Assembly: GCA_031213475.1 (NCBI GenBank)
Contig: JARUPZ010000005.1
Location: 12,161,260 to 12,225,259, forward strand
DNA from: Nereocystis luetkeana
Lineage: Eukaryota > Sar > Phaeophyceae > Laminariales > Laminariaceae
Direction: 5' to 3'
DNA: 64,000 nt
A program made the position numbers and the translations under genes. The notes below the pieces were generated by a model. That model was given only the letters and a program-made list of their open reading frames with translations, was not told where the DNA came from and did not search any database. Numbering within the stretch: position 1 is the stretch's first letter; the number at the start of each line of letters is the position of its first letter. Positions 22,786 to 46,535 of this stretch are shown piece after piece.

Positions 22786-24408
22786 TAGATGGGGGGAAAA
22801 GGGGTTGGATAGGGAAGAGCTGAAAGACATACGTTTTTACGCCATATAAAATGAACGCCATGCAGCGGTCGCAGGCATACAGCAGTATGAATATCATAAC
22901 GAAATTCTTCATTGTTCATTCTTCAATAGTTGCATAAAATACAGACAGATGCTTGTACCAGATACAACTTGACATTGTGGTGCTCCGCAGGCCAAAGCAA
23001 CGCGATGGGCATGATAGTCCTGTGCTGGGCGAACAACTCAATAAAAAAACATCCAGCATCAGCGCGTATCGGCTTCCATGCCCAGTACATCAATGCAACT
23101 TAACTCGGCGCCAACTTTGCGCACTTGTCTTCGATACTTCATTCTCCCCCGAGTTCTCAGCCACAACTCGAATTTTACGCTTTCGCATATACTTTACATT
23201 CATCTCGTACTCGCACTCGCATCGATGCCCAACCAGAGCCCTCGACCAGTCAACTATAAAACAGACAGACGTCATTGTCCTGCAATCGTCTACATAATAA
23301 GTTCAGTGAGGGAAGCTATATACGAACACGTCTGTGCATTTCATTCTAATTCCAACATTTTCAATTCTCAATCGCAATGTTCGGATATTATCTACAACTC
23401 TTAAATCGATATAAAATCAATCTAAAAACGGAAATTACCGACAGCAAACAATAAAAAAAGTCAAACGTGCCTGTTGCGGACGTAAGTCCTTGCTGGTGGC
23501 GCCTCGGTCTCTTCTCTTTCACCCTCTCTCGCTTGGGGCAGTGCATCCTGTCGCGCCCGTGCGCTGATCCCGAACAGCAGATGCAAATTCCCCCCCCTGC
23601 GCCCATCCTCACTCTCCTTCATCTCCTTCCTCGGGGGCAACGTCCCCCCTTCATCAACCACCTGCGGGCGCTGTGTTTCAGCAGTCCAGGAAAACGATTT
23701 TGCCCAAAAACACTTTCAGCTTCCACCCGCGGTCTCCACCTTCCACCCGGCTCCTCCCGGCGATACACATACGCGTCCTTCACCCTATCATATATTCTTA
23801 CTCATTTCTACTTCTGCTTCGCCAGCGCGAAACGAACCCACAGATAGATTCAGGCAGATACCTGGCTCTCCTGGGGTGTTGCAGCATCGACGGTAACGCG
23901 GCGGTCGAGACGACGGCGGCGGCAGCGGCGGTAGCGAAGACGGCGGTTGCGGCGGCGGTGGTGACGGCGGCGGCGATGACGGTGGTTGCTGCGTACGCTT
24001 CATCATCGCAACATGCGCAGCAGTCCTCTGACTGCTGCTGTTGCGATGGACGGTGCTACTGGAGGTGCTGTTGCCCCTGCAACTGCTGCTCTCCAGAGCC
24101 TTCGCCACCAGTGCCAAGCGAATCTACCAGGTCCGGCTCAAACTTGGCCCTGCTGGGATCGCTGCTGCTTCTGGTGCGGCATCTTCTTCTTGTCATATTA
24201 CGTCCTTTCCACCAGGACCTCGATCCTCTCCGGGATCATCAGCAGCAGCAGCTTCTCTACGTGCATATACATGCATATTCTACTAATTTCCAACGTTGGC
24301 TTCCAGACTAGACACGCCATCTAAACCAGACATGCCGGAAGGTTCCCACCTCTCTAGGTTGGCCTGGGCCACGCTTGCCAATAGAAGGTCACCGGTTCTT
24401 CACTAGTG

Positions 24409-24669
24409 TGTTGATTGATCTCTAAAGGTATAGACGCAGCTGGCACGGGAACGCGTGGTTGCTCCAGACAATAACACGGAACTCATCTAATATAATACAT
24501 CCGAGCTGTCGAGCTGACTCGTCTCCTATGGAGCTACTTCTAACGAGTGGTATTGGTGGGGTACACGTTACCCCGACATCCCAATACCCTACACCAAAAT
24601 CCCTGTTCAGCATGGAACTCCTCAATCTACTCTGGATCTTACGGATCGTGTTCTTGAGCACAGTCAACA
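24409..24669 (+). repeat. 3' LTR of the non-autonomous element
   Basis: Same length and termini as 20,795-21,055. Differences include ACTACTTC/GCTACTTC and CACCAGAAT/CACCAAAAT. Confidence 0.9.
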
Positions 24670-26873
24670 TGGGGCTTTGACCTAGACGCGTTTATGCAGA
24701 AGCGCATACACCAGGTACCTGTCGCCGGCGAGGCCGGCGACGAAACACCGGAGACGATGGGTTCGTCTCAAGGGGGCGCCGTGGACGCCTCCTCGGTCCC
24801 GTCAGGGAGGGCCGAAAGCGACCCGGGTGCAGCATCAGTCTCTGACACCGGCCAAGGGAACGGTGAGGGTCCCCCCGCGATCCTGTCGGGCAGGCCAGCA
24901 CACGAGCTGAGCAGCTGGGGACGGCTCCCTCCAACAGTACGGGGCCGGACCCGGGGTCAGAGCCAACGCCTGGAGGGTGAACCTGCTGTTAAACAGCTCA
25001 GGATGGATATAGAAACCGCAGACACGCTGCTTGCGGCAGCGTATGAGTGGTCGACGACACCTGGGAGTATCTTGAATCGTTCGTCATGGACGACGGAGGA
25101 CGCAGTGGCATCGATGGCCGGAGGACCTGCTGTGGAGAATAAAAAGGGGAGTTGAGCGTGTGCATGCCGAGTGGTATCCCGGAAGACGTAGAACCGCCGC
25201 CGCAGTCCGTAGCAGATGTAGAGCGTTCCCGATATAAAGCGGCGTGGCACGAGGCCATGCAGATTGAGTTGGACGGTCACAAAACGACCGGTACAGATGA
25301 AGCGTCGACACCGCCACGAGGGCGGAAACCTGTAGGCGCGAAGTGGGTGTTCACCTAGAAGACGGATAAGGGTGCTATGACTGTAAGACGAAGGCCAGAC
25401 TTGTGGCTTTTAGCCAGGTGCAGGATGTAGATTACTTTCAAACGTTTGCACCAACTCCTTCGTCAGCATCATCAATCAGTTAAAATTCTGGCGGCTGTTG
25501 CCAACGAATACGGTCTGAAGATTTTCCATCTATCACGGGGGGCCATAGTTAACAGGACCAAATATTGTTAGTAAAAATGGTTAAACATATACGTTTTTAG
25601 GTATACCATAGGTCCTGTGAACTATGGTCCCCCGGGATAGACGTCGCACAAGCTTTTGTTCGCGCGAAACTCGACGCCGAGATATACATGAAACTACCCG
25701 GTAGGTGTGGTGACATGTCAGGAAGGATCGTCCTTTGAACAGATCACTGTATGGTCAGTCTAAAGCAGAGCGGACGGCAGTGGGCCGGATTATTGGTAGA
25801 AACCGTGGTAGAGTACGGTATGGAGCAGTGTAGGTCTGACCCGTGTGGTTTTCGCATGGTTGTGGACGGCAAGGTAGAACTGATCATGGCCGTCCATGTA
25901 GATGACATAGTGATCGCAGGATCGGACGAGACATGTAGAGATTTCCATGTCGCGCTAGTTACGAATTTCCCCACAAATAACCTCGGCGAACTGACTTGGT
26001 ATACTGGTTGTGCTTTCAAACACGACTGGGAGTTGGGAACATTGGAGATTACGCAGAAGGCGTTTATTGAGAGCATGCTGAATCGTTTTGGTGTCAACTC
26101 ATCCTCTGAAATCCCCGCGACCCCCGGTGTGGAACTAGGTCCAAGAGAGGAGGGCGAAATTGGAGGAGACTGGCCGTACAGGGAGGCTGTGGGCAGCTTG
26201 ATGTGGCTGTCGACCATGACGAGGCCGGACATCTCGAAAGCTGTACGTGGTGTGGCGCGCCACTCCCACAACCCAACAGAGAGGCACTGGAAGGCAATTT
26301 TGAAGATTATGGCTTACCTCCATGGGACCAGGTTTATGGGATTGACTTTTGTGCGGAGTTCGGAATTGGATTTGACTGCGTATAGTGATATTGATTATGC
26401 TGGTAAGTCGAACGATAGGCGCTCGGTATCGGGGACGGTAATTACCCTAGGGGGTGCGGCCGTCAGTTGGGCAAGTAGCACGCAGAAGTGTGTTACGTTG
26501 TCGACAGCAGAAACAGAGTATGTCGCCCTGGGTGATTGGGTGAGTATGCCGCCCTGGGTGATTGGGTGAAGGAAGCTTTGTTTACGGGCGCGGTGTTGTC
26601 GTATATTTGTCCAGAGCGAAGCGGATCCTGTGTTCGGGTTTTCGAGGATAACATGGGGGGCCATAGCGTTGGCTGAGAACCCGGTTCTGCGCGGAGTAAG
26701 CACATTGACGTGCGTTTTCATTTTGTCAGAGAACTACGTCTTGCTAAGAAGATCGACATTCAGTTCGTAGCTTCGGAAGAGCAGCACGCGGATATTTTGA
26801 CGAAATTCCTTTCTGCGACCCCTTTTAAGTATCATCGTAGGTTGTTGCTGAATCTGCCTTTGGACGGCGAATA
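24670..26873 (+). pseudogene. Ty1/copia reverse transcriptase and RNase H (part 2, broken)
   Basis: Linker and RT start (24,675-25,358: 'AWHEAMQIELDGH', 'PVGAKWVFT'), then degenerate RT to 'KIFHL' at 25,530, a MITE, and 'DVAQAFVRAKLDAEIYMKLP' from 25,638. The 25,751-26,569 ORF holds the RT active site 'VHVDDIVIAG' (VDD at about 25,898-25,906), 'LGELTWYTGCAF' and RNase H ('AYSDIDYAGKSNDRRSVSG', 'STAETEYVAL'). After 26,570 the frame breaks: an extra G in the G run near 26,655 disrupts the 'EDN.GAIALAENP' block, and the protein resumes as 'RSKHIDVRFHFVREL' and 'HADILTKFLS', ending at 26,873. The order RT-RNase H after integrase identifies Ty1/copia. Confidence 0.85.
25533..25637 (+). mobile_element. 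105-bp TA-inserting MITE (MITE-M copy 1) in copia RT
   Basis: Terminal inverted repeats TCACGGGGGGCCATAGTT and, inverted, TCCCGGGGGACCATAGTT, then AACAGGACC/CACAGGACC, flanked by TA (25,531-25,532 and 25,638-25,639). Removal with one TA restores the copia frame across 'FHL-DVAQAF'. A TA duplication fits the Tc1/mariner type; no transposase is present. A second copy is split across 50,528 and 52,268. Confidence 0.85.
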
Positions 26874-27175
26874 AGGGGATATGAGCATTGTTCGTTTTGT
26901 GATGCGAGGATTGATTTGTCAGGTCGCCAACCCTGCGCTACTTTGAGGGGCACGGGGGAGGAGGGCACAGCTTGGCATTTTATTTTCTGGCCATGGTCAT
27001 CGTTTGGAATGCGGCCGTTGTTCAATTGCAATGGTTTGGAGGATGTGTGTTATACAGGGTTTTTTGACCCGGTGGCCGGGTTTCCTCCTGCGGAACTGTC
27101 GTTGGCTGTTCTTACGTCCTAGCAAGTCTTGAATGTCTCTTCGGTCTCGTCGCTGCTGTGAAGCGCCAGGGAGGG

Positions 27176-27422
27176 TGTTCGTTTGGATCGTTCCAGCAGC
27201 GACGGTTACAAATTGTAGAGGGTTAAGTATATCTTCGCAGACGTTATTGTGAATTTTGCCGTGTGTTCATGAGGAGAGCTCGAGTACTCCGTTCTCCGCT
27301 CCTAGCTACGAGCTAGGCTCCGCTCCCTCTCTCCTCCTCTCTCCTCTAATACAACGACTATAAGTAATCTCATCAGACCACGTCGTCGTCAGGGCATCCA
27401 GGTTTGGACTCTACGAGCAACA
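27176..27422 (+). repeat. Probable 3' LTR of the copia element
   Basis: Starts TGTTCGTTTGG directly after a purine-rich tract (CCAGGGAGGG, a polypurine-tract candidate) about 300 bp past the copia stop, and ends ACGAGCAACA (TGTT...AACA). Contains a TATA-like GACTATAAGTAA. No 5' LTR exists in the window to confirm it. The end abuts a CA-rich stretch into which LINE-A is inserted. Confidence 0.5.
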
Positions 27423-27439
27423 CACGCACACACACAAAC

Positions 27440-28049
27440 ACAGATGCAGAGAATTATCCGTAATTTCCACGATGGCATGCGGGCTCGCGTGCGTACTGAT
27501 GACGGCGAGCGCTCGGAATGGTTTGATGTCACGCAGGGGCTGCGGCAAGGCTGTGTACTATCACCGTTCCCGTTCAACGTGGTATTTGCTGCTGCGTTAC
27601 ACGTCGTACTAGTACGCTTCAGCCAAGACGAAGCCATCGTGAGGGATTTGGTGCAACTCAGTGAAGCTGGAGTAGTTCGGCCAGGGAAGCAGGAGCCATT
27701 GGTGTGCGTGCGAAGGTCTGTGTGGGGCATGTTGTACGCCAATGATGCAGCAATTGTCTCGAAGTCGACTGAAGGGCTCGCAAAAATGATGACAGTCATC
27801 GTGACTGTCTTCGAAGCAGCAGGCCTCACGGTGTCGGAAAAGAAGACAGAGACAATGGTCCTAGAAACACCAGACCAGACAACCCTCGCACCACCGCTCG
27901 TCATCGAAGCGGCAGGCAAGAGGTATAAGCAGACGACCCAGTTCTTATACCTAGGCGGCGTTATCCACGAAAACGCTGCCCACTCGCTCGAAATCGACCG
28001 ACGGATCCGCCTCATGCGAGCATGCATCAAACGGTTCGGCCCGGAGTTG
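27440..28049 (+). mobile_element. LINE-A copy 8, 5' part (split by gypsy-1)
   Basis: RT palm region in one open frame from 27,444: '[15 protein letters not shown]' and the active-site box mutated from YADD to YAND (about 27,735-27,746). It stops matching LINE-A at GGAGTTG (28,043-28,049); LINE-A resumes at 35,081 exactly where this leaves off. 5'-truncated in a CA-rich target. Confidence 0.85.
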
Positions 28050-28180
28050 TGTTATGATACTGCTTTGTATGAGGTTGAAAGCCCGGTAATTACCTGGGTT
28101 CTGGCACTGGGATCGTATTTGTAGTACTTGGAAGGCGTATCTTAGGTGGTAAACCAGGGGTTTTCCAAAGAGGCACGAGC

Positions 28181-28552
28181 GTGGCCCTAGTCTCCGTCTC
28201 CGAAAATAACGCACGGCCGAATAAGAACAACCACAAGAAAAACAGGCGACGTTCAGGCCATTCGCGTGGACAGCATCACGGCCAGGGCCACAAACAAGGT
28301 AACGGCTACAACACACAGGCGGGACGAGGGCACCAACAGTCTCTTTCCGGCTACCACGGTGGTAGTTCGACCAACTCTGCCCCTTTCACCGCGGCTCCCG
28401 CGTCGGGGGTTCGCTACGGTGCATCGCATAATTCGGACGGTAACCCCAAAGGACGCCATCCAGGCACCTTCCGTCCGGTAACTGAAAGGTCGACGGCGGT
28501 TCGGCTCCTCCAGCCCGCCCGCCGCCAGCATTGCCGGGAGAAAATACATTGA
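28181..28552 (+). pseudogene. Gypsy-1 nucleocapsid-like basic segment
   Basis: About 120 residues rich in Arg, Lys, Gly, Gln, His and Asn ('NNHKKNRRRSGHSRG'), resembling the RNA-binding end of a Gag protein but without a CCHC knuckle. Only 130 bp separate it from the element edge, so the capsid part of Gag and any 5' leader are missing. A frameshift then leads into the Pro/Ser-rich frame at 28,531. Confidence 0.4.
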
Positions 28553-29549
28553 TTTCACAAGATACACGCGTCCCAGGCTCGCTCAGCACTCAGCGTCGCC
28601 CTGCGCCGCTCCCCCCCCGCGCATTCCTCCGTACTTCGGACCGACACAGCGACTCAGCTCCACCGGTTCTACCGGGGAGTCCCCGGGCGTCGTCGCCGAC
28701 GTCGGGAGCCCGTGCCTCGAACGCCGCTCCCCTCACCCGGCGCACGAGAGTAGGCGAGATAAACGCCCCTCTCCCGAACCACGCACCGCACGGCACCACG
28801 CGTGTCGCGCCGTCGCGTCGTTCTTTTCAGCGAGAGTGTCCCTTTCTTTCACCTCCCGGCCATGCGGTGGCGGTCGGTTTGAGGTGCGGGAAGGCAAACA
28901 CCGAAACCCCGAGATCTCGGTTGAAGCTCGACTCGGCGTTTCCTCGCAATAACGGTGGCCATTCAATCATTTCTCCTATTAAGGAAGAGTCAATCTAATT
29001 AGCTACCTCGTCCCCCTTCCCCACCAGGTCTACAGGACGGAAGCCCTCTCCGGAGGACCCTTTGTTGCCCCCCACCGGAGCACCGTTCTTGATTTCGTCT
29101 ACAGGGTCTGCAGGCCCTCTTTCGTCTTCGCGCACGCCACTCCACGTGCGCCGCGCTCCTCCGGCTCCAGTGGAACAGGAAAAACCTGGTACTGCCCGTC
29201 GAGCCAGTGGTGACTCCACAGCCTCTGGTCAGATCAACCGGACTGCATACCCGTTAAATTCGGAAGAATCGCAGCTCTCGTCAAGCAGAACGGGCTCAGA
29301 GCCCCCTGCCCCCTTTGGTCCAGGACAGAGATATTCGGGCGCAGTAAGAGAACTTTCTGGCGATTTTTTGCCCACGGGCAATGGTGACGATGAGCCAGTA
29401 CACGTGGAACCGGACTCGCCTCGTGCACCAGGGGCTCAGTGTTCTCAGAGAAGCACACTCCCCAAAACACACACCGCAACGGCGGCCACCGACGACTCGA
29501 CACCTTCGGTCTTTGACCCTACTCTCGAGTATTCAACGGAGCGGGCGGT
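28531..29549 (+). pseudogene. Gypsy-1 Pro/Ser-rich linker region
   Basis: One frame with a single TAA at 28,996-28,998. It encodes a Pro/Ser/Arg-rich, low-complexity stretch with no recognizable fold, probably the hinge between Gag and the NADAR-like domain. Confidence 0.4.
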
Positions 29550-30000
29550 ACTTTCTGGCTGCCCCCCTCCTATGTTTCGCAGTGGTCCCCCTCGGTTTTT
29601 GTCATTGACAGAGTGGCATATTCCTGCGCGGAGCAGTAGATGATGGCTGAAAAGGCTCGCCTTTTCTGGACCACGACACAGCGGAGCGGATTATGGCCTC
29701 GCCAGACCCTCGCGAGCAGAAACACCTCGGTCGAGGCGTGCATAACTTCGACTGCGCTACTTGGGACCTCGTTCGGGGAGACGCCGTCCTTGCTGGTTCC
29801 TTTGCCAAATTCACGCAAAACCCGGTCTTGAAGCAGCACTTATTGAGCACTGGCAACAAAATTTTGGCTGAGGCCAGCCTTTTGACTCCGTGTGGGGCAT
29901 CGGTCTCCGGGCAGGTGACCCCGAGGCTCAAGACCCCTCTCGGTGGCGTGGCAAACATTTTCTCGGGGAAGCTCTTTCCGCCGTTCGCGACACCCTCCGC
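29550..30000 (+). pseudogene. NADAR-like (YbiA/DUF1768-type) domain in gypsy-1
   Basis: About 150 codons read in three frames: 'FWLPPSYVSQWSPSVFVID' and 'VAYSCAEQ' (29,550-29,636), in-frame TAG (29,637-29,639), 'MMAEKARLF', a 1-nt shift near 29,665, then 'RIMASPDPREQKHLGRGV', 'FAKFTQNPVLKQHLLSTG' and 'ILAEAS', a second shift near 29,880, then 'VWGIGLRAGDPEAQD' and 'LGEALSAVRDTL'. The order Phe-Ser-x-Trp / AEQ-x-MMAEKA / LGR / KF-x-QN / L-x-x-T / EAS / WG-x-G / LG-x-x-L-x-x-VR is the NADAR pattern as I know it. Characterized NADAR proteins act on ADP-ribose-type substrates, including removal of ADP-ribose from guanine in DNA. What it does for a retroelement is unknown. It lies 190 bp before the protease. 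The 1 stop and 2 shifts make this copy dead. Confidence 0.8.
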
Positions 30001-30192
30001 TCAAGTGAGGCCGGGTTGGCACCCCCCGCCTCTTCTCATCACTTTTGCGCTCGAACCACGACTGACAGAATACATGAGATTTCCACAGCGCCGCCTGGCC
30101 CTTTGGCCGTGGCCCGCGCTTGCCTAGGTCGTCCCTTGGAGTTTTCGACCTATTTTTCTGAAGCGCCGGCTGATCACAGCCCCGAGGTTTAG

Positions 30193-30567
30193 GCTGTCGC
30201 ACCTAGTGTCGACCCCTCCCTCGCGCTGCCAGAACACGGCCCCTGCCTCGTCGAGGGCACCATTACCCTCGATGACGCCTCTTTTACAACCAAAATCGCG
30301 ATCCACAGCGGAGCTGGCGTTCTTGCATTTTTTGGCTGCGTAGCTCTTCTTGACACTGGCTCCCCACAGACCTTCATTCATCAAGATGTTTTGGATCGCA
30401 TGCTCACGGTTGGTGCGGCATCCATCGCGTGCGAGGAGAAATGCGCCCCTCGTTCCTGGGAGGGTTTTGGCGAATCAACCCCTCTAAAGAAATCGACGAG
30501 AGTGCGCCTGAGCGTCCAATTTGTTTGAGAAAATGAGCCTAAAGGCTCCCGCAAAGTTTGGGCCTGC
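30193..30567 (+). pseudogene. Gypsy-1 aspartic protease
   Basis: Frame shared with the RT ORF downstream: 'GTITLDDASFTTKIAI' then the active site 'ALLDTGSPQTFI' (Asp codon 30,352-30,354). A TGA at 30,526-30,528 separates it from the RT ORF, which continues in the same frame with 'AVLLGHDSWMRF', matching the second half of a retropepsin ('LLG-D'). Confidence 0.75.
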
Positions 30568-32298
30568 GTGGTTCCCCCCTCAGTGATGCAGCATGCAGTA
30601 CTGCTGGGACATGACAGCTGGATGCGTTTTAACAGCCGCTCCTACCGCTCTCTCCCACCCCGGCCGTCAGACAATCGCGTTTTTGGCGAGTTGGAGTTAC
30701 TTCACCACACCCCGACAGGCATGTCCGTGTACGCCATCGACCCCGCCGCTTCGGGTGGAGGCTCTCATCTCCGCTACGAGGGTGCGGCAGGCGTCACCCT
30801 GTCTGACGATCCTCAACTCCTTGTGGTTAATTTGGTTCGAAGCGATGGCTCCCCAGCACTCACTGGGCACTACTTGGTCGACATGATACCTCAGTCCGAC
30901 CTGCCCTCGGTTGAGGAGCACTTCGTTGCCTCCGGGCGACAGGTTCTTCCCCTCGTTGGAGTGGCGGCCCTCGAGCCTGGAGATATCCTCGGCGCCGCCC
31001 ACGCCCCACTGCTGAGCGTTCCACTGGACGTTTTGCATCAGGACAACCGAGCCCCCAGCCCTCCGTCAGGACTATCTGAGGTGGCTCTGGTCTCGCCAGT
31101 TTCAACTTCCCCCATAGCAGCTCCGAGCTCTCCTTCGCCTGCACTGCTTGGGCGTTTGAGCTTAGAACAGCGCGTTTCGTTCCTGGGCGTCTGGGCACGT
31201 TTGCCGCTGCATCTGCGGGAGGTGGCTTTTGACCTTCACGGCACGGACTGGACCCCTGAGACCATCGAACAACTGGAAGATGTTCTCTGCGATTTTCCGC
31301 ACGTATTCTCGAAGTCCAAATCTGATTTTGGTTCCTGCTCGTTGATGCCGTTCGTGATTTCGGCCCCGGAAGGAAGCCCTCCAGTCACGTCCAGGCCGCA
31401 CCGAATCAACCCCATCCTGGCCAAGGAAGTGGAGGCCACCTTGGATCAGTACCTAGCAGCGGGTCTGATCCAGCACTCGACCTCTCCGTATTCGAGCCCG
31501 CTGGTGGTCATCCCGAAGAAGTCGGGAGGCGTTCGGATCACAGTGAACTGCACGAAACTCAACCAGATCAGCAACCTCAGACAGCTGCCTATTCCTCGCG
31601 TGGATCAAATTATCGACTCCCTGGGGAAGGTACGGGTGTTTTCTCCCTTCGATATGGTCTCCTCGTTCCACCAAATTACGGCGCACAAAGACACCGTCCC
31701 CCTCACGGCATTTTGCACTCCTACGAAACTCTACGAGTTGCTCGTCATGCCCCAAGGCAGCAGTGCTTCGCCCGGCTGGTTCGTCAAAGTTATTAACGAA
31801 GTCATCAAAGGCCTGGCACAGGTGGCGGCCTACCTCGATGATGTCATCGTTTTCGACTCTGATCCGACGGCCCACGTCAAGACGATACGAGCCCTTTTCT
31901 AACGCCTGCGCAACCACAACCTCAAGCTCTCCCCCTCGAAGGCTCGCCTCGGCGCCACGGGCGCTAGTTTTCTGGGCCACTCCATTTCGCCCGCGGGTAT
32001 ACGCCCCAATGCGGAAAAAGTTTCGGCTTTGTTGAAAATGCCCATGCCCAAGAACCTCAAGCGGGTCCGAGCATTGATAGGCGGCGTGGGATATTATCGC
32101 AAATTCCTGCCCGACCTGTCTAAAAGGATCCGGCCCATCACTGCCCTCCTCCGGAAGGGGGTTAAGTACGTCTTTACGCCGGCCATGGAAGGTATCGTTC
32201 GCCAGATCCTCGCCGAGCTCGCTGCCTCACCAGTTTTGGTCTTCCCGGACTGGGACGCTGTAGCCGACGACTCCCGCCCCTTTTCGCGTGTACTGTGA
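30568..32298 (+). pseudogene. Gypsy-1 reverse transcriptase
   Basis: Residues 1-210 of the 30,568-31,902 ORF are a protease tail plus variable connector. RT proper follows: 'RPHRINPILAKEVEATLD', 'SPYSSPLVVIPKKSGG', 'LPIPRVDQIIDSLG', 'FSPFDMVSSFHQI', 'YELLVMPQGSSASPG' and the active site 'VAAYLDDVIVF' (about 31,828-31,860). An in-frame TAA at 31,900-31,902 interrupts, then the same frame continues with 'LSPSKARLG', 'FLGHSISPAGIRPN' and 'VGYYRKFLPD'. Canonical gypsy residues such as D in 'DMVSSFHQI' and the YLDD box survive. Confidence 0.85.
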
Positions 32299-32660
32299 CG
32301 CCTGCATCGACGGTTTTGGTGCCGCGCTTGAACAATAACAACTGGACGGCTCGGTACGGCACATTGCATATATCAGCCGCGCTACTCTCGATTCCGAGAG
32401 ACACTGAACCCCGTTGGACCTCGAAGCGGGCAGCATTGTCTGGGCTATCAAGCGACTCCGTGGCTACCTATGGGGGACAAAGTTTCGCATCTTTTCGGAC
32501 CACAAGGCACTTGAGAGCATCGGCAAAGTAGGGGATCACAACGCGCGAGTTCAGTTGTGGCTCGAGTTCCTCACAGCGTTCGACTACACCCTCGAGTACC
32601 GCAAGGGCAGCGCCAACGGCAATGCTGATTTTCTCTCTCGCTTGCCAGAGCTGGCCACGG
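32280..32660 (+). pseudogene. Gypsy-1 RNase H
   Basis: After a frameshift near 32,283: 'VYCDACIDGFGAALEQ', TAA, 'IAYISRATLDSERH', TGA, 'DLEAGSIVWAIKRLRGYLWG', 'IFSDHKALESI' and 'EYRKGSANGNADFLSRLP'. The catalytic Asp (CDAC), Glu (LEAGS) and Asp (SDHKAL) are visible. Confidence 0.8.
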
Positions 32661-33710
32661 AACACGACCGCAATGGGTCTATTTGCCTCACACCCGTAGA
32701 AGACGGGGGTATCTTCCTCATCCAGGCCTGCGGGCTTCGCACTCGCTCTTCCCCGACCCCCGGTGTCGGTTTGGGTGGGCTGGTGCCCCGCATCGAACGT
32801 GCCGTCTTGGGTGAGCTGCTTTTCACCTCTTCGGATTTTCGTGATTTTCGCACACACGGGCCATGTATGAGGATTAACGACCTCTCTGCTCCTTCGGGGA
32901 GATTCGTCCCTCGTGCCTCTGCTTCCGTCGCCACCGTCGATCGCCGTCCTGGCTTGAGGGTGTGTTCACCTGCCGCCAACACCGCTTTCGCTTCGGTTTT
33001 CGTCGTACCCTCCGGGGGCGACCAGGGCTCTGTAGAAGCCCCCGCTGCAGCGACGATTGTCGCCCAGCACGCTCCTCCCCCGACGAGCACTTTACAGGGA
33101 GAAAATTCCGCTGTGATCACTGATCCGGCCGCGTCTGCCCCTCCCGGCCAGGACAATGCCGAAGCCCCCGCTGCAGCGACGATTGTCGCCCAGCGCACTC
33201 CTCCCCCGACGAGCATTTCACAGGGAGAAGGTTCCACTGTGATCACTGATCCGGCCGCGTCTACCCCATCGCCACCTGGCACCCCGGCGCCTCCGACCGT
33301 TTTGCCGTCTTCCGGCCGCATCTCCACTCGGACGCACCGACGAACAACCGCCACCGCTGGCTCCGCGCCGCCTGCTGTTGATAATGGCTTCGGGCCCGGC
33401 GGGGCCCCTAGAGCCCGGCGCGCTATCACCCCGCCGCGAGCCCCACGGCCGCGACCGACCGCACCAGCCGTGTTGGCCCCGGCTCCTGCCGCTTCGTTGG
33501 TCCCGACGGTACCCATCCCGTCCGAACGCGACCGCGCCGAACCCGTGACCGCGCCGAACCCGTGGGAACCCCTCTTTTACGGCTTCCGCTGCCAACTGAC
33601 GCACCGCCCGTCCCCACGAATGACTTGCACGCCCTCGGCGCAGCTGCCGAATTTCAGTTCGCCCTCGGCTGCCACGCCTTCCCCTCACGATTTTCGAGCG
33701 TGCTGGAGTC
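32661..33710 (+). pseudogene. Gypsy-1 Pro/Ala-rich linker, integrase core absent
   Basis: Where the H2C2 finger and DDE integrase core would be expected there is only a Pro/Ala/Arg-rich stretch in the 32,414-33,787 ORF. It contains an in-frame 126-bp direct duplication (33,035 and 33,161 start 'EAPAAATIVAQ'). Either the core was deleted or this lineage carries a non-canonical arrangement. Confidence 0.5.
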
Positions 33711-34361
33711 ACCGGCCACCCAAGCTTTGCCCGCGACCACCTCGCCTACTGCGACTTGGCGGTGGACCGCCAGCAGCGCGCGTATGATATCGTTCGTGAA
33801 CACCACGCCCTCACTGTTGCCCGCGTGAACCGCCGCAACTCCGCCCTCGCCGACGCTTTGCGTCCGGTCCCCAGATTATATGTTGGCGGCTGGGCGTGGG
33901 TGTACAATACGGCGGCCACCATCCGCCAGGGGGCAAAACCCGACACGGACGCCAAGGTCCTCAAGGCCAAACTCTCACTCAACTGGACAGGCCCCTACAA
34001 AGCTCTCGCAGTTGGCCCCTGCTCCGCACCGGACACTCCGGACGGATCTCCCCTTGGGGCAAAGCTCCTGTATTTGGACCTCCCCTCCGATATGCCCGGT
34101 GCGGATGCTCGTCGGCGCGTTTCAGTTCAACGCTGCAAGCCCTCTGCCAACCCCCACGACCGTTGTGACATGCCGAAGTATTTGCCAGCGGGGTTGACGC
34201 AGTACGTCCTTAACAACTTCTCCAAGAAATCTCCCCCGTACCACGTCACCCAGGACGACGTCTCGACACCTCTTCACCGACTCGAAGTGGAAAAGATTAC
34301 CGGACACCAATCGGTTCGAGGTCGAGGTGGCGTCATCGCGGGGATGTACGAGACGCACTGA
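33711..34361 (+). pseudogene. Gypsy-1 integrase C-terminus (GPY/F-type) and chromodomain start
   Basis: The ORF from 33,756 reads 'AYDIVREHHALTVARVNRRN' and 'LKAKLSLNWTGPYKALAV', the GPY/F module, then 'PSDMPGADARRRVSVQRCKP' and a chromodomain-like 'LEVEKITGHQSVRGRGG'. It ends at TGA 34,359-34,361, where related proteins would keep a Trp. Confidence 0.75.
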
Positions 34362-34873
34362 ACTGGACTCTCCCGTCAATCCTGGGAACGGGAAAAAGAC
34401 CTTCGGCTTTCTCGCCACGCAAGTTTGCGCTACTGGGCCGGCACCCCGAACCAGCATGGTCAAACCAGCCGCCTGTACCACCGAATGGAAATCGGCGCGG
34501 CACAACGGAAGCTCTCTCGGAATAACGGCCAGCGGCTTCTGGCACCCGGCTATGGCTGCGTCTCGCACGCCGACTGGCTCCGCCGATACTGCAACACTTT
34601 GCTTCCCAACGGGGCCCCTTTTTGGTACAAGTGCGACGACGGGCTGTGGTGGCTGGAGAAAATCAGCGCGACTACGCCCACGGATGGAGTATATTGAGTT
34701 CGATTTGGACGACCCGGGGCCGGTCAAGCTTCCTTTTTCTCCGGCGCGCTACCCGACTTCGACGAGAGCTGTACGTGGTTCTTGGTGTCTGCAAATTTAC
34801 TTGGCTAACACGTCTGCAAGGGGGGTCCAGCGTAACGTAGACGAATCTCGAGGTGCCGCCGTGGATAGCTGAT
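34362..34873 (+). pseudogene. Gypsy-1 C-terminal tail with Tudor-like segment
   Basis: The same frame goes on past the TGA: 'TGLSRQSWEREKDLRLSRH' (end of the chromodomain-like fold), 'LLAPGYGCVSHADWLRRY', then 'FWYKCDDGLWWLEKI' and 'DGVY', which looks like a Tudor/Agenet-type reader module. A frameshift after 34,697 leads to a last conserved stretch 'RNVDESRGAAVDS' ending at 34,873. Confidence 0.5.
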
Positions 34874-35080
34874 TTTCGCTTCTCGGCTGCGCTCGATTTG
34901 TTTTTTTTTTCTTCAAGTTTTGCTGGATTTTGGGCGTGGTCCCAGTCTCCGTCGTGCACGAAAGGAATAAAATGTTTCTTCTATCACTAGGCGAACATCA
35001 ACGTGAGTACCAACGAGTGCCGGCTTAATAAGCAGACCTGTCCAGGGATACAAAGTGTCCCGCTCTCCGTGATCTTAACA
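34874..35080 (+). other. Gypsy-1 3' untranslated end
   Basis: Contains an AATAAA signal (GGAATAAAATG near 34,966) and ends CTTAACA at 35,080. No sequence here repeats the 5' end of the element, so an LTR pair is not supported. Confidence 0.5.
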
Positions 35081-36756
35081 GTTGTATGATAGGACGACCG
35101 CCCCCCTTAGCCTTAAAAGTCCGAATGCTGAAGGCCGAAGTGGTTGAGACCCTGCTGTACGGGTGTGTGACGTGGACCCTCAGAGCGTAACACTTTGCCA
35201 ATCTTCGAACGGCTCACCACCAAGTCTTGTTGCGAGTCATTGGCTTCCAGCGCCGACTTCGTACTGACCATGCCACCCTCTCGTACGCGAAGACCCTCAA
35301 GATGACACGTTGCGAGAGCATCGAAACGACCATTCGTAAACGGCGGTTCTTCTTTGCGGGGGGCGTGGCATATCAAACCAAGGAGCGACTACCCAGTCGG
35401 GTAATGTTCGGGACGATAGCTGGTGGGGAGAACCAGAGACCAGGCGGACAGTGTAAGACTTGGCATAGATGCATAGTCGAAGACCTTACTTAGGGACTTC
35501 CGAGCCACCGAAGGGTCAACGGCAGTTGCCTCATTGGTGTTTGGAGTTGAGACCACGTTGTGGCCCACTGCAGCCAAAAAGGCGGGGAAGTGGTACCGGG
35601 GGATCCTTGAAGCAGCCGAACGGTTTATGGTGAGGTGGCACGAGGCTGAGATGAGTAGGAAGCGCCGCGCATCCGCCGTGGATGGTGTCCAAGGGAACGG
35701 GGGTGGAGGGGGCTCTTAGAGGAGAAGTGGCAGAAAGCCCGACAAAGGGAATGCGGAGAGGGGGGGGAACAGGATGGTTAAAAGGGAAACTGCGGTTGGC
35801 AAGTAGGAAGGAGATGGCAGACAGGGTAGCAAGGCACCAGGCCGACTAGGAAGTAAGTAGAACATGACCACACTACTAGTGCCACCAACTGGTTCTTCAG
35901 CTGGTTCGAACGTGGGTTTCCCTTGTCTTCTCTTTTTGTTTTTGTTTTTCTTTCTTGCGCTGACTCTCCGTGATTTTCATTTTTTGTTTTCCTCTTCCTT
36001 TTCTGATTGATAAGCCGTACTGAAGGAGCCGTGTGGCGTGGTTAGATGACGAACCTGCTCTGCTCGTTTCGTGTTTTCTGACGCCAAGGGGCTGGACATA
36101 GTTGACGAACGCAGGGCGGAGACGGCAGTCTGGGTAGCAAGGTACCAGGCGGATTAGCAGGGGGAACCTGGCTATACTACTCGTACCACAAACTGCTGCC
36201 GACACCTCGAGGGGGCTTTTGGCTTTGGTCTGCCTGTTATTTTCCCTTTGTTATTTTCCCTTTGTTATTTTCCCTTTGTTTTGTTTTTTTTCCTTGGTTC
36301 TTTGCTTACTCTGTTTACAAGAAGTCGTGTTTTTGTTATTTTTATTTTTTTTCCAGCTCGTTCTTTTTAAAGTGTTGGCCACCTCGCCTGCGGGGGGGGG
36401 GCACGACTTCTTATTTCTCCTTGTTTTTTTCTTTTATTTTTTTCTTTTTATTTTTCTCTTTCGATTCGTCTACTTTGTTTTCGTTTTCTCTTTGATTGTT
36501 TCTTTTTGTTTCTCTATTTCTCTGATTGTGTATGTCGTGCCTGTCGTATCTAATACGAGTATGATGACATGGCATTGCATTGCCCACTGCAGTGCTTACT
36601 GCATACGTGGCAACGTAGTATCTCTGTGGCGTAGCTTTGTGACCACAGAACTTGTATATCGGCACGGACTGAAGAATCGGCACGGACACTGAACTGGTTG
36701 TGCTGGATGTCGACGGGTAGAAAGAACGGTTTGATGTGAAGAACACACACATACAG
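35081..36756 (+). mobile_element. LINE-A copy 8, 3' part (reference LINE-A 3' end)
   Basis: Resumes LINE-A after gypsy-1. RT C-terminal blocks run to about 35,850 ('[15 protein letters not shown]', 'RVIGFQRRLRTDHATLSY', 'RVMFGTIAGGENQRPGG'), with stops and a shift near 35,490. Then comes the 3' UTR: first coding end 'VARHQAD' (about 35,827-35,850), a second diverged copy of the coding end ('VDERRAETAVWVARYQAD', about 36,099-36,155), the G tract (36,391-36,400), and the tail TTTGATGTGAAGAACACACA to 36,756. The target is CA-rich on both sides. Confidence 0.85.
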
Positions 36757-36868
36757 AAAAACTCAAAACAAGGCACCCTACCCTCGTACCCGAGCCGTTA
36801 TGAAGAGGCTTTTTTTTCTTCGGTGAAAACCAAGTAAAAAAAGGCTAACTTCGCTCGCGCGCCTCTTT
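36757..36868 (-). repeat. Dispersed hairpin repeat, partner of 4,308-4,420
   Basis: Reverse complement of 4,308-4,420, truncated at the TG-rich edge where LINE-A inserted. Confidence 0.65.
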
Positions 36869-37380
36869 ATAATTGTAAATAGTTGTATAGGCGTATTACG
36901 CAGCTTGCAAAATTACAAAATTCGACAATAAGTGTATCAACTATAATACCAGTCGAACTCATAGCTAGCTGATGACCGATGACGGCGTATTTTCGTATTT
37001 TCATCATTTTAATCATGGAAAATATGAAATTGCTCCACACCACATTTAGTGTTTGTTTTTTAACAAGTTTTAAAAGCTGCTGGCATTGATGATCAGCAGC
37101 AGTATGGCCGGACTTTATTTTTATACTCTTATGTTGAAATGAAAGTAAGTACGGCCTGCCACAGCAGATATTCCGTACTGTGGTGTGGCCCAAGAGGATG
37201 TCAGGTGACAAGTCATCAAGCGAGACGCAAAACGTGCGCTGTCAACTGTCAACGATGTAGGCCGAGTGTTCCAGACTCAACATAGCAGTTTTGTTGTCAG
37301 TCAAAGCATATATGTGTCACAAGGCAAACTTGCTGTCTGTCAAGGTGTAAACATGCTGTTTCCTACACTGTATCTTTGGT
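36869..37380. other. Unassigned stretch, no convincing gene
   Basis: AT-rich, no domain recognized on either strand. Confidence 0.4.
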
Positions 37381-37790
37381 ATGACCGGTACGGACGCCAT
37401 GGAGGCCTATCTCATGGGCGGGGTCGATCGATCAGCAGCGAGCGGCACTAGAATCACCGCCGCCGCCGCCACCACCTCCACCACCACCTATCTCCACCTA
37501 CCTCCTCAACAACCACCAGTAACCCAGCGCAAGCACAATAACCATCAGAACAGCCACCATGAGCTGGCACCGCAACAAGAAGAGTACTTGGGGCAGGGGT
37601 GGGAAATAATCAGAAAAAACGCCGCCCATGTAGTGGTAGAACTTCTCGGAGCTTGTGGGCCGCGGGTCGAAAAGAACAACGCCTGCGTCGGGCCGGCTCC
37701 CTTCGCGCAATCAGCAGTGGTAGAGTGCGGGAAAGTCTTCACGTACAACCGCGCCGACCTTGCAGCAGGAGAAAAAGATATATATATTTA
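37381..37790 (+). other. ORF of unknown nature upstream of repeat array
   Basis: An open frame from ATG 37,381 (Thr/Ala-rich start, then 'QGWEIIRKNAAHVVVELLG' and 'VVECGKVFTYNRADLAAG') runs into the CCGTCCCG array, where translation becomes repetitive. I do not recognize it. Its composition is less biased than the flanking repeats, so it may be a fragment of a captured gene. Confidence 0.2.
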
Positions 37791-38190
37791 CCGTCCCATT
37801 CAGCCCAGGAAAAACAATTACCGTCCCGCCCCGTCGAAGAAAACAAAAATTACCCTCCCGTCCAGCCGTGAGAAAAAAAATTGCCGTCCCGTCCCGCCGA
37901 GGGAAAAAATGTTTACCGTTCCGTCCCGTTGAGGGAAAAAATAATTACCGCCCCGTCCCGCCGAGGAAAAAAATAATTACCGTCCTGTCCCGCCAGAGAA
38001 AAACAAAATTACCGTCCCGTCCCGTCGTGAAAACCAGTCCCGTTGAGTTTTACCTTCCCGTTCCGTCGAGAAATTGTGCACCCGCCGTCCCGTCCTGCCA
38101 ACTTTTTATATCTTCATTTTACCGTCCCTTCCCGTCCCGTTGTCATTTTTTCCCGCCAAACGAGAAAAACCTGTCCCGTCCCGTCCCGCC
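37790..38190 (+). repeat. CCGTCCCGTCCCGCCG array 2
   Basis: About ten degenerate units of 35-45 bp, each AATTACCGTCCCGTCCCGCC plus a purine-rich spacer. Same core as 16,558-16,825. Confidence 0.8.
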
Positions 38191-38237
38191 ACGATTCTCA
38201 GTCACTGTGAAAGACCTTGAAAAATTCAAGGCCTCAA

Positions 38238-38330
38238 TTGCGGACGACAATTCCGAAGTACAGACAGAGCTTCGCAATTTCAAGTCAAAACACCCCTAAA
38301 TATTATTTCCCCAGATTGCAAAACCTACCC
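38238..38330 (+). mobile_element. TEL-MITE remnant (right part)
   Basis: GCGGACGACAATTCCGAAGT, CAAAACACCCCTAAATATT and CCCCAGATTGCAAAACC align with the right third of TEL-MITE. The telomeric array and left end are absent. Confidence 0.6.
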
Positions 38331-38463
38331 GAAAATTCCTCAATTAATTCCCGTTTTTGTGAGGTCCCCACTCATTTTTGTTGTAAATAGTACCAGGTAA
38401 ATAGTAAATACCAGCATCCAGAGGAGTCACCGGCCAGCAGTCAATCGCTATAGGGAAATAATG

Positions 38464-38553
38464 GAAAACGTGCGAACGGTTCACGCAGCTTCCAAAGTTT
38501 AGACTTTGCAAAGTTTAAACTTTGCAAGCTGGGTGAACCGTTCGCGCGGTTTC
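38464..38553. repeat. Near-perfect 90-bp palindrome (foldback)
   Basis: Core arms 38,472-38,508 and 38,509-38,545: GCGAACGGTTCAC, CAGCTT, CAAAGTTTA and CTTTG mirror each other with only a few mismatches. The outer GAAAACG/CGGTTTC extends it. Probably a tiny foldback MITE or a transcribed hairpin. Confidence 0.7.
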
Positions 38554-38587
38554 AATTACTTCTATTAATAGTAGTGTTAGATATCAT

Positions 38588-38665
38588 ACCGAAACTTTCG
38601 ATATATCGTTCGATAAATTATACCAGGTATATATTATCGAACCGAAAAAAGTTCGGTATTTCGAT
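38588..38665. repeat. AT-rich palindrome centred on TACCAGGTA
   Basis: GTTCGATAA ... TTATCGAAC arms surround TACCAGGTA at 38,621-38,629. The outer arms (ACCGAAACTTTCG / AAAGTTCGGT) also pair imperfectly. Possibly a relic of a TA-inserting element. Confidence 0.45.
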
Positions 38666-39589
38666 TATTAGTTTGGACAATTCGATAAACGATAGCGATA
38701 CGACAAAAAGACAAAATGCTGAACGTCTCCCAGGGGGATGGGGGACATGGCAACAAACAGCACCATACCCTATTTAATAGGATGATAGAGAGCGTAACGG
38801 ATAATATCAGGTCATGCGTGTAACACCATCACATCAACACTTTTGGTTGATATTTTTAGTACCACAGGTGTATGTACGTACGTGGTACGTTTGTGGCAGT
38901 ACTACAGCAGTGTTCCTTTCTCGATGCTCGTTTTCTTATTAGGTACGTACATATTAAGAAAACGACGGAGAAATAAGAATGACGGGCGGAGACTAAGGGT
39001 TATTCTTATCGGAAAAAAACAAGAGAATTTTCAACTCGGGATTCGTTACTGTTTGATGGAATTAAGGTAAAACGCCCCCATGCTCATAGCAGAATTCCAT
39101 CCTGGGCCAGCTTCCCTGTTTCTTAGAGTAGAGTGTTTGTGCTTTGGATACGAATGGTAATAACAATATTAAGGTGAGTGGAAAGCGGTGTCATCATCTG
39201 CTACATGTTGTGTAGCAAGGTATACGGTGTGGGGTGGAGAGGAAATACGGCTACAACAGAGGAAGCAGGACGGTGTGGGAAAAGCTTCCAAGGTACGAGT
39301 GTACTTGGTTTTGGGCAGCTGCACCGCACAACCTTCTTAGTATGCGCGTTGCAGTCAGAACCCGGCCATTTATTCGAACAACGAACTGCCATTCAAAGCA
39401 TTCTAAACAATACTTGAGGGGAGAGAACTTGGGTTTTGCAGTATACTGGTAGCAGGTATCAGGGTGGTGGCTGCAGGGGGGTAGCGGAAATTACAGAAGC
39501 AAGGGCGGGTAGAAGTGATTATTACAGGAGTAATGACGTGGTTCACGTTCGTTTTTGGTCTCTAGTTTCGTCAAGGATTCAGGTATTAA
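38666..39589. other. Unassigned stretch, no convincing gene
   Basis: Short ORFs without recognizable domains. It leads up to the gypsy-2 5' LTR. Confidence 0.4.
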
Positions 39590-39933
39590 TGTTACGGGGG
39601 TAGCCCAAGGATCCGAGGGGTTTCCAGAAGGGGACATGGCATGTAGGAAAAGGGGATATTGAGAGTTGAACCCTGAGACGGGGGATGTGAGCAGACGGCC
39701 ACAACCTTTCTCCGCCCCTTCAGCTCCTTATACTTCGTCTCGTGGCCGGCAGTGTGTGCCTACACTATAACAACTGAGACAACTGTGAGATTGATCAAGC
39801 GTATGTTCCGCAAGCTGGGTGGAACCACGGGAATGCCGGTGGCAGTCTTTGCAGCAAACTGAAAGAGCTTGAGCGTGTGAATGAGTGCCAGACGGCCTAA
39901 ACGAAGTAATACATGATGATTTCAGCTACAACA
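39590..39933 (+). repeat. Gypsy-2 5' LTR
   Basis: Starts TGTTACGGGGGTAGCCC and is alignable with 47,944-48,276 over about 330 bp (AAGGATCCGAGG, GGCAGTGTGTGCCTACACT, GGGTGGAACCACGGGAATG). An end at CTACAACA (39,933) gives TGTT...AACA. A CTTATACTTCG stretch (about 39,728) may be the TATA region. Confidence 0.8.
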
Positions 39934-40026
39934 CCAAGACGTTTCATGACGCGGATCTCCTAACTCTGATCAGGCTCGACCGAGTAGCTCGGGGGCCGAG
40001 CCCAAGCAGTTAGTGGGTACGCTTCG

Positions 40027-41913
40027 TTGTTAGGAAAGGCACTACTGACCACGTCGCAGTTCTTTGTCCCGCCCAATTTAACGACAGGGGATCCTGTGCA
40101 GTCCCCTCTACCTCCGGGGCCACCGCCGGAGGATCCTTACCAAGGGCAGCCTCCCCTACCGCAAGACCCCCCACAGCAGTGGCAGCCTCCTCCACCGCAG
40201 AGCCTTCCGCCTTCGTCCCTCGCAGCACTGCCGCTTCCTCAGCAAGTCCCTCTAGCGGTGCAGCAACTCCTGGCCCACTACGGCGTACCAGCGCCAGCGG
40301 CACCAGCAGCACCAGCGGCACCAGCGGCCCACGCCGCGCCGATGGGGGCAGGTGAGATGCGCGTCCCAAGGGCGTTGCAAGATCCCAACAAGAAAACTCG
40401 GCGAATTCGGGGCAAGATACACAGCAATGTCACGGGGCCCATCTATACTGGGGCGTCCCAGGAGGCGCTGTCGATTAGCAATAACGCGGTCCTGTTCCAA
40501 GACAAGTTAGCGAAAGTGCTCAGCACGACGGACGGTGGGGTCTGGGCGCTCACGCCGGATCGCCCATCCAGCTCGGGCTTGTCGCATCACCACCCCTGAT
40601 TGGACAACTTGACGCCGCTGCGTAGGGAGTTGCTGCAGGACGTCCTGGGCGACCATTTGGACACGTATGACGAACTCTTGTCCACCGAATTGGTCGAAGT
40701 ACCGACGATAGACGGCTCGTTTACTCAAATCGAGGCGCGAAAGGTTTCCGCGACTGAGTGGTTGCGGAAATTGGTGCGAGAGGGGCTGCAGCAGTCTGGG
40801 GCGAAAGAAGCAGCCGAAGAAGCACTGCTCGCCGTCACGGTAAGTGGCACGGAGGCTTGGAAAGCCGCCGCGCGCAGGCTAGTGGTGTTATACCGTGCTT
40901 TCAAGGCCGACCCGGTTCGTCCTCACATATCAGAAGTGACATTTTTCTGGAGATATATCACGGAGGCGCAACTGACGAACCCCCGGGAACGCCTGGTCCA
41001 ACTGTTATTGCCGAGCGCGTTCGACCAGTCCGGCCTGCAGGGGGTGGTGCATGAGCGATTCCTGCGTATACACGAAGAGATTCGCCCGCTGCAGGTAGAT
41101 TTCTGGAACCCTTTGGGTGCACCCATGGTGGAGAGAGGTGAGAAGACAGAAGCATTCTTTGTGGAAATGGTCGCCTTCGTGTCCACTCGCCGCTCGGTGT
41201 ACCAGCACTCCATCCGCAACTCGCTTAAGGGAAGCTTCGGAACGTCACAGCGCCTCGCATCTATCGGTGCGGAGTCAATGGCAAGTACGCGGCACCTTTT
41301 CCGCCAGTCGCGGGCCGATATGGCCGCGTTCATGGGTGGGGGAACTTCCAAGGGGAAGAGCAAGGACGTGCTTGCCGCGATGGGCCGGTACGAGGACAGC
41401 TTCGACGAGGAGAACCACGGAGCCGTCGCGGCGATCGCGAACCAGACGCCCTCCACGCTGGGGCAGCACGGGGTGCCCTTCGGAAAGGACGGTCCCTCCT
41501 CGGGTCTCCCCCGCTCGCAGGGGCCGCCCCGGGAAAACAACCAAAGTACGGGCAAGGGGTGGGGCACCGGTTCAGTGGGGTCATCGGGGTTGCCACGGGC
41601 GGACGCCCCGCGCCAGGAGCGTGCTGCCTTTCTGTCGAGGCATACGATTTGCTTCGCATTTGCGTTCCAGGGCGCCTACCCCCGCCACGACTGTTCGTTT
41701 AACCACGATGACTCTCTCATCCCCGCACGCTACGTTAGGGCTCACGCCAGCAACAAGCGTTCAATGACTCAGAGCGAGGGAGGACGCGAGGGGTCGCGTC
41801 CTAAGCGCAGGTTGTACGCTCTATCCGACGAGCAGGTCGACCTTGTAGCCGCATACTTCGACGAGGATGTGGAATCGGCCGGCGGCGCGGGCGGCTACCG
41901 GCGTGACACTTGA
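40027..41913 (+). pseudogene. Gypsy-2 Gag polyprotein
   Basis: The N-terminal part (40,027-40,599) is Pro/Gln/Ala-rich, with PAAPAAPAA repeats. A TGA at 40,597-40,599 is followed in the same frame by a helical capsid-like region ('LRRELLQDVLGDHLDTYDEL', 'RERLVQLLLPSAFDQSGLQG', 'VYQHSIRNSLKGSFG'). Near the end there is a zinc-finger-like 'ICFAFAFQGAYPRHDCSFNH', which fits C-x8-C-x4-C-x3-H with the second Cys replaced by Tyr. Most gypsy Gags have a CCHC knuckle instead. The TGA at 41,911-41,913 sits at the Gag/protease boundary in the same frame and could be an old stop or a read-through site. Confidence 0.7.
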
Positions 41914-43134
41914 AGACGCGCCCCGGGGAAGCACTTGCCCCCGGGGAACAAGGTGGTTGCGCCAGGACCTCCGCCAGACGCGGACATGGGCACCGATGAT
42001 AGGTTGGCAGCGACGCAGAACGGACAGCAGTTGTGGGTCCACTGCAGAATTTGGGACCCTCGGAGAGTGGCGTGGCGCATCCCGGTAGGGATACTCATCG
42101 ACACGGGCGCCGGGGGAGGCAACTACATTTCACTGGCGTTTTGGAGCAGTGCCCAGTCATGGGGAGGAAGCGCAGGACGGCGTAAGCTTAGCCGTCGAGG
42201 TAGAGGATCCCTACAAGCTGCGAATCCGGCAGGTAGCAAGGTCCCCGTGGTGGAGATCGTGGGATCGACGGTGTTACCTGTGGTGCTGCCCCCGGAAGAC
42301 AAGGCCCGGAACATCTCGGTAAGGATCGTACGAGACATGCCATACGCGTTTATCTTGGGGGCCAGCTTTTTCAAGTTGCACAGCAGCGTCATTTCGCTCG
42401 GGGAGGGCAAGGGGTTCCAGCCGTCACCCGGGGCCCCGTGGGTGACGTTCCAGCCGCGGAGCGCGACCACGAAGCATTCCTGGGACCGGTACAGTGCAAT
42501 TCAACCCGCGAATGACTTATTCAAACCCGCCTCAGCACCTCCGTTAGCTCCACCGCTGCCGGCGTGTTCCGTGGGCCAGGCAGCATGGGAGGACGACGAG
42601 ACGTTGCAATGGGAGTTGCGACTGTCGCTTCGAGTGGGAGTTGCGGGATTTGTGGGAATAGCGGTCGACGAGTTCGTGAAGGGACCCCAGCCGAGCGAAC
42701 GACAGCTGGTCTTGATCCAGCCGGTGGTGAAGTACGACACGGACAGCGGAGCGATGGTAGGGATGGCGACGGGGGTACAATGGTGGGAGCCGGGCACCCC
42801 GTTGTACTGTAAGGTGGCCAACGCGGGGAGGGCGGCCGTGGTAGTGCGAAGCGGGCACCCGATTGCGAGGGTCATCGCGCTTAACGTAAGGGGTGAAGAT
42901 CGGTTCCACGCACTGTTCGTACACCCCCCCCCCCCCCCTGACCCACATCCGAAGCGGTCCGACGTCCCCTCGTCTCTCCCAGACTCGAACGACGACGAGA
43001 CCCCGGCGCGCGGGGTAGTGCTCACCGACGCAAACATCGGTCAGCTTAGCGTGAGCCCAAAGAACCAGCTGATGAGTGCACTGAAGCCCCAGAACGTGGC
43101 GGGGTTGTTCCCGGAGGATACGAAGAGAGTCTGA
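41914..43134 (+). pseudogene. Gypsy-2 aspartic protease region
   Basis: Same frame as Gag. The active site 'GILIDTGAGGGNYIS' (about 42,087-42,131) is followed by 'YAFILGASFFKLH', the usual second half of a retropepsin. The rest is a connector to RT, with 'FHALFVHPPPPPDPHP' over a C run (42,925-42,940). TGA at 43,132-43,134. Confidence 0.8.
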
Positions 43135-43143
43135 GCTTGTACG

Positions 43144-46079: not shown

Positions 46080-46535
46080 GTGCCTCAGATGGATGACACG
46101 GAGACCACGGGAGGCTTCGAGAACTTGTTTGAAGAGCGCCGACACAACCTACGGGAGGTCAGGGAGGCACTCGAGAGGATACACGAGGCCAGGGAGAAGG
46201 CGCGACAATGTCGCAACGCATCGATTCAGCGACCATCAGCGGGCACTCGGGTAGTGACGGGTGACCTCATCGTGGCGAAAGAGAGCGACAGCTCGCTCCA
46301 CCGGCAGGGTAGAGGGCCTAAACTGGTCCACGATAGGTGGACTGGCCCGTGGAAGGTGGTGGAGGTGGTGATCGAGGGCCTGAGCGTCGTCATCGAGATG
46401 GAAGGCAGGACGACGCGCTCCACGACGGCCTCCGCTGCATCGCTGAAGCCATTCTACACGAGGCCCTCCGACCTTCGGCACCCCATGGAGGATAAGTTCG
46501 CGCAAATGACGTGGGGCGCAGACCTGGAGCTCTGA
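46080..46535 (+). pseudogene. Gypsy-2 integrase C-terminal GPY/F-type region
   Basis: A charged coil-like start ('LFEERRHNLREVREALERI'), then 'KLVHDRWTGPWKVVEVVIEG', the GPY/F module, and 'SLKPFYTRPSDLRHPMEDKF'. Ends TGA 46,533-46,535; the same frame continues. Confidence 0.8.

Follow-up and report, generated by a model that had tools for sequence, protein, structure and literature searches.

In Ectocarpus, a NADAR-bearing Gypsy lineage, Gypsy-12_Ec32, was described in Genome Biology in September 2025 (PMC12477816). In that report, a C-terminal chromodomain is given for Gypsy-12, chromatin readers are carried by Gypsy lineages of the same alga, and a role in the processing of RNA intermediates is suggested in general terms. 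The ORF1 of the Tx1 long interspersed nuclear element (LINE) of Crassostrea gigas is likewise a retroelement protein with a YbiA-family NADAR; it differs from the elements studied here in belonging to an element of the non-long-terminal-repeat (non-LTR) type, in its divergent domain and in the protein that carries it (PMC12477816). In our study, a NADAR domain was found in a broken copy of a Ty3/Gypsy element of Nereocystis luetkeana. The window, i.e., the whole stretch of DNA that was analysed, is 64,000 nucleotides long (assembly GCA_031213475.1, contig JARUPZ010000005.1, positions 12,161,260 to 12,225,259 of the forward strand), and positions are counted from its first nucleotide.

The element resembles Gypsy-12_Ec32 in being a Ty3/Gypsy element of a brown-algal host, a likeness taken from the published description. 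The Nereocystis genome is larger (465 Mb vs. 200 Mb in Ectocarpus; PMC12477816), and it was found to contain at least four NADAR families and 778 candidate sites. The original prediction, made from the letters of the window, knew of no established description of NADAR in a gypsy element; the Ectocarpus paper reports such elements, and therefore the window lineage adds a member to a kind already described and strengthens the case for its function. What is new here is the further and larger genome, the evidence from the active site and from selection, and three proteins that join NADAR to another reverse transcriptase (RT)/RNase H-like region. Beyond the Ectocarpus paper, no further report of a retroelement NADAR was recognised in a literature search that had most subscription papers and all preprints outside its reach. 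A NADAR of the type that removes ADP-ribose from nucleic acid has been maintained under selection in a retroelement lineage that was amplified in Nereocystis and, therefore, the Ectocarpus case is not the oddity of a single genome.

NADAR within the Gypsy Pol

The NADAR domain (PF08719) of the window was found at 29553–29999 on the + strand, broken across three frames and containing an internal TAG. The open reading frames (ORFs) of the window were profiled singly, without joining frames, and the curated cut-off of PF08719 was 35.1 bits. Two pieces scored above it. The ORF at 29651–30124 matched positions 50–123 of the 163 positions of the profile (E 5.3e-18, 66.2 bits), and the ORF at 29872–30189 matched the adjoining positions 124–163 (E 1.7e-8, 35.3 bits). 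The N-terminal part of the domain, in frame 3 (29553–29666, +), was matched by tblastn with a family C Pol query at 66% identity over 38 residues and with a family A Pol query over 29553–29753; here the CAEQ-MMAEK motif was interrupted by an in-frame TAG at 29637–29639. The middle part, in frame 2, was placed at 29651–29878 (+) and the C-terminal part, in frame 1, at 29872–30000 (+), beginning with WGIG and completing the domain; both were also matched by tblastn, the latter from 29878. The ORFs 28999–29640 and 29640–29828, each taken alone, had no Pfam match. The E-values on separate pieces rule out a chance likeness of motifs, and the NADAR domain that had been predicted at 29550–30000 is borne out by them.

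All 150 of the scored candidates in the window's genome passed the Pfam cut-off, and by hand count 47 of these 150 were held in stop-free frames of more than 2000 amino acids. Twenty copies, picked for their long open frames, were taken for closer study (19 of family A and one of family C). NADAR, the protease motif (LLDTGS) and the RT motifs were present in one common frame in 20/20 of them, and the in-frame copies seen thus belong to families A and C and not to the window's own family B. One family A copy (L028) contained a TGA inside NADAR. Eighteen of the 20 copies had a CCHC knuckle that preceded NADAR by approximately 1.55–1.75 kb, and in 11 of these 18 it was in a different frame; on the opposite strand, 0 such knuckles were found in 197,880 residues. 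Three Pol ORFs of these 20 copies were profiled with Pfam and contained NADAR, RVT_1, RNase H, H2C2 and rve in this order, with rve below the cut-off and the protease recognised by motif only, without a Pfam match. In the Pol frame of L021, NADAR was located at residues 373–520 and RT at 1053. The Ty3/Gypsy order of protease, RT, RNase H and integrase was thus found in three relatives, whereas the window copy was devoid of the integrase core. The C-terminal chromodomain given for Gypsy-12 was not found in the stretches scanned by Pfam, the ORF ends lying outside these stretches. A chance insertion into a single copy is ruled out by the NADAR copies throughout the genome and by the common frame of NADAR, protease and RT in the relatives. 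The earlier view of NADAR as part of a Ty3/gypsy element therefore stands, in the form of an inherited domain of the Gypsy Pol whose catalytic residues and selection were kept.

The 47 NADAR copies that were compared with one another (L029 was left out as a repeat of L004) fall into at least four types, with 24 copies in family A, 18 in family B (the window's type), four in family C and one in family D. An equal score and a 231-amino-acid frame were observed at five sites (G000:C10:1635042, C987, C1041, C1184, and C1795), four of them on small contigs. The C10 copy (L047) belongs to family B, and the five sites are perhaps one recent multi-copy segment.

Active site, selection and possible role

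Eight side chains that contact ADP-ribose, including the catalytic Glu and Lys, were retained in 45–47 of these 47 copies. The YbiA subfamily of NADAR is characterised by a catalytic Glu at the E125 position together with E43 and K50 (PMC11543638); the three residues were conserved in 45/47, 46/47, and 47/47 copies, respectively. At the E125 position the other two copies contained Lys, and none contained the Asp (D171) of the DarT1-linked antitoxin. A structure model of the retroelement NADAR matched the ADP-ribose-bound structure 8bau, a stand-alone NADAR of Phytophthora nicotianae with 34% identity to it. The ratio of nonsynonymous to synonymous substitution (dN/dS), pooled over 18 family A copies, was 0.36 for NADAR and 0.35 for RT, values that are descriptive since the pooled pairs share ancestry. 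For whole families, the dN/dS of NADAR was 0.38 in family A (23 of 24 copies), 0.51 in family B (n = 18), and 0.49 in family C (n = 4). Between families A and C, NADAR was 47% identical, with 36% identity at third codon positions and 63% at second positions. Because the eight contacts are kept, the model matches 8bau and the pooled dN/dS equals that of RT, we find the domain to be under selection, and sequence and model together make it probably catalytically active.

A piece of a host or bacterial gene, captured by chance and playing no role, would agree with the broken state of the window copy and with the lack of a long frame in any family B copy seen. However, families A and C hold NADAR in frame with the protease and RT, and in family A its selection equals that of RT; a passenger of this kind is therefore highly improbable.

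Our preferred reading, to which we give a probability of about 60%, is that the NADAR of this Gypsy lineage is a YbiA-type hydrolase within Pol, probably an active N-glycosidase that is used during the handling of RNA and complementary DNA (cDNA). A Ty3/Gypsy lineage would long ago have captured the hydrolase and kept it in Pol directly before the protease. In working copies, NADAR would be made within Pol and enter the particle alongside RT and integrase, where it would be set free or put to use. The enzyme would strip nucleic acid of ADP-ribose or of a related ribosyl adduct; alternatively, it would clear ADP-ribose derivatives. Acting while RNA and cDNA are handled, it could prevent host- or damage-derived adducts from blocking reverse transcription or integration. 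Within this reading, the action on nucleic-acid adducts is put forward tentatively, and a context of defence appears unlikely. An active domain would point to ADP-ribosylation, or to chemistry derived from nicotinamide adenine dinucleotide (NAD), as acting on the RNA or cDNA of eukaryotic retroelements.

Several results weigh against the hydrolase reading. Relative to 8bau, D86 was not kept, Y84 was replaced by Phe in 46/47 copies, and K75 was kept in only 38/47. RT of families A and C was 79% identical, and NADAR thus diverged further than RT did from one family to the other. In family B, all 18 copies were contained in frames of 184–882 amino acids, no copy was seen to share a frame between NADAR and RT, and four profiled ORFs (L001, L002, L003, and L005) contained NADAR only and ended before the expected position of RT. 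These short frames give family B the look of an old lineage in decay; the relatives with open frames are members of other families. In addition, a six-frame search of the genome that ignored introns gave 0 candidates for DarT (PF14487), the control search being positive in one of 14 named genomes.

The weaker conservation relative to RT would suit a non-catalytic fold that only binds nucleic acid or ADP-ribosylated chromatin and aids packaging or targeting, and the chromatin readers of Ectocarpus Gypsy lineages offer a parallel (PMC12477816). The catalytic Glu, the Lys and the six further ligand contacts, kept in nearly every copy, argue against such a role, which we regard as quite improbable.

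The kept active site would also serve a counter-defence, the role put forward in the original prediction. Here the host would ADP-ribosylate the cDNA, RNA or proteins of the element, or raise an alarm by a signal derived from NAD, and NADAR would reverse this. NADARs occur in RNA-virus polyproteins, phages and giant viruses, and a counter-immunity role has been proposed there (PMC9503650). Against it stand the missing DarT match and, for PARP, two partial matches in the genome, one of them above the cut-off, in a search in which no control genome matched. To our knowledge, no ADP-ribosylation-based defence is known in brown algae. The Asp of the DarT1-linked antitoxin is a Glu here, and the YbiA of E. 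coli, despite its activity in vitro, failed to rescue cells from DarT1 (PMC11125620). A counter-defence is accordingly rated unlikely, and the Glu, the DarT search and the lack of rescue gave no support to the toxin-antitoxin logic of DarT and NADAR. The EsV-1-7 repeat, a family expanded in brown algae (PMC7457493), gave 1713 candidates in the same genome, and 150/150 of those scored were above the cut-off, as fits a brown-algal host other than Ectocarpus sp. 7.

In an RNA-processing role, much like the one suggested by the Ectocarpus authors, NADAR would deal with by-products of ADP-ribose or with groups derived from NAD on the element RNA, as in end repair, transfer RNA-like ends or NAD caps. 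A link between NADARs and RNA repair has been described (PMC9503650). However, no RNA-repair partner domain was found by Pfam in the three profiled Pol ORFs (E up to 0.01), and we hold a role of this kind to be possible at rather low odds.

Origin of the domain and other retroelements with NADAR

Collections of prokaryotes and of viral contigs were scanned for the donor of the domain. Among the best 80 of 563 prokaryote matches, the eight best rows were NADARs of Myxococcota and Planctomycetota (L049–L056), with 57–59% identity over the domain; these differ from the retroelement domain in being short stop-to-stop frames (187–283 amino acids, 8/8) outside any retroelement Pol. The NADARs of viral contigs reached up to 55% identity among the best 80 of 294. 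The first quick tree placed families B and C (support 88) and families A and D (84) in separate groups, and the second tree contained A and D with a support of 73. A tree with the retroelement NADARs united was 8.28 log units higher, with a p-value of 0.614 in the approximately unbiased test (83 of 93 rows; P0013, a database protein treated below, and nine near copies were left out). A single origin, which was not rejected in this test and scored slightly higher, is possible, and the trees give no resolution of the donor among the prokaryote and viral-contig relatives.

Three database proteins of 1236–1750 amino acids, P0013, P0014, and P0015, were found to carry NADAR (E 1.2e-33, 2.2e-48, and 3.1e-34, respectively). 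P0014 contained two NADAR stretches, followed by weak matches to RT (0.0023) and RNase H (0.042), and in P0013 the region after NADAR matched RNase H weakly (0.059). In P0015, Pfam matched neither RT nor RNase H; the protein aligned with P0013 and P0014 along the RT/RNase H-like region, and its N-terminus weakly matched an OTU protease (0.0031). The region was unlike Gypsy, with a profile comparison to Gypsy RT giving E 0.005 and a probability of only 7%. Because of this low probability and the missing Pfam matches in P0015, any RT class given to the three proteins is tentative. No solved structure was credible by sequence for the RT part. Conserved FLDDN (2/3 proteins) and CDNE (3/3) blocks were present, which we take to resemble the RT/RNase H of DIRS-type elements. 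If the region is DIRS-type, it would represent a third retroelement class with NADAR. It is conceivable, at odds well below even, that retroelements have repeatedly taken up NADAR as an enzymatic accessory, in separate captures by Gypsy elements in brown algae, by Tx1 LINEs in the oyster (PMC12477816), and by a DIRS-like group (P0013–P0015), since ADP-ribosyl or related adducts would commonly obstruct eukaryotic retroelements or serve the defence against them. In the viral contigs, 27 stretches fitted a pattern for relatives of P0013–P0015, and 0/27 were true relatives.

The window copy and its surroundings

The NADAR-bearing remnant of family B extends from 28201 to 34121 on the + strand, with a break as its 5′ edge and a 3′ edge set by the last tblastn match to Pol. 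Seven family B loci, used as queries, were 93.6–95.2% identical to it at the DNA level, and the homology stopped at 28201 in six of the seven and at 28513 with L005. The original prediction placed a Gag-like region before NADAR and a protease 190 bp after it. The protease motif (LLDTGS) was found at 30346–30363 (+) by motif scan, without a Pfam match, approximately 350 bp downstream of the domain end. The Gag part was not confirmed because no zinc knuckle (CCHC) was found on the + strand of 24000–48000; the ORF 28999–29640 had no Pfam match, as noted, and the homology ends at 28201. RT and the start of RNase H followed in frame 1 at 31510–32328 (+; RVT_1 3.3e-16), with a tblastn match in this frame over 29878–32328 at 54% identity, and RNase H in frame 2 at 32279–32962 (+; RT_RNaseH 9.3e-12; tblastn). 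From 29878 onward, frame 1 of Pol was interrupted by stops whose last positions are 30192, 30528, and 31902. The window copy is dead because of the TAG at 29637, the changes of frame and these three further stops. The integrase zinc-binding part and rve core (family A residues 1535–2009) had no tblastn match in the element, and a part beyond the core was found in frame 3 at 33666–34121 (+; tblastn, family A residues 2010–2161). A tandem pair of 123 nucleotides, 89% alike, was observed at 33019–33267, in the part of the Pol remnant that lacks the integrase core. No LTRs were found, either as a repeat pair between 26001–29600 and 33901–38000 or at 24000–40000, the copy itself being cut at 28201.

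Just upstream of this break, a Copia-type RT (RVT_2) at 25739–26566 (+) and a separate RVT_1 fragment at 27306–28121 (+) are remains of nested elements. A second Gypsy-like element was present at 40600–46400 (+), with a protease motif at 42094, RT/RNase H at 43480–44397 and integrase at 44772–46076; it had no NADAR match and was approximately 22–26% identical to the Pol of the NADAR-bearing Gypsy. Further RT fragments were observed at 53744–56187 (−) and 59491–62247 (+), the latter preceded by an endonuclease/exonuclease/phosphatase ORF in the manner of non-LTR elements. An array of a 32-nucleotide unit, with six copies in register, was present at 37810–38032.
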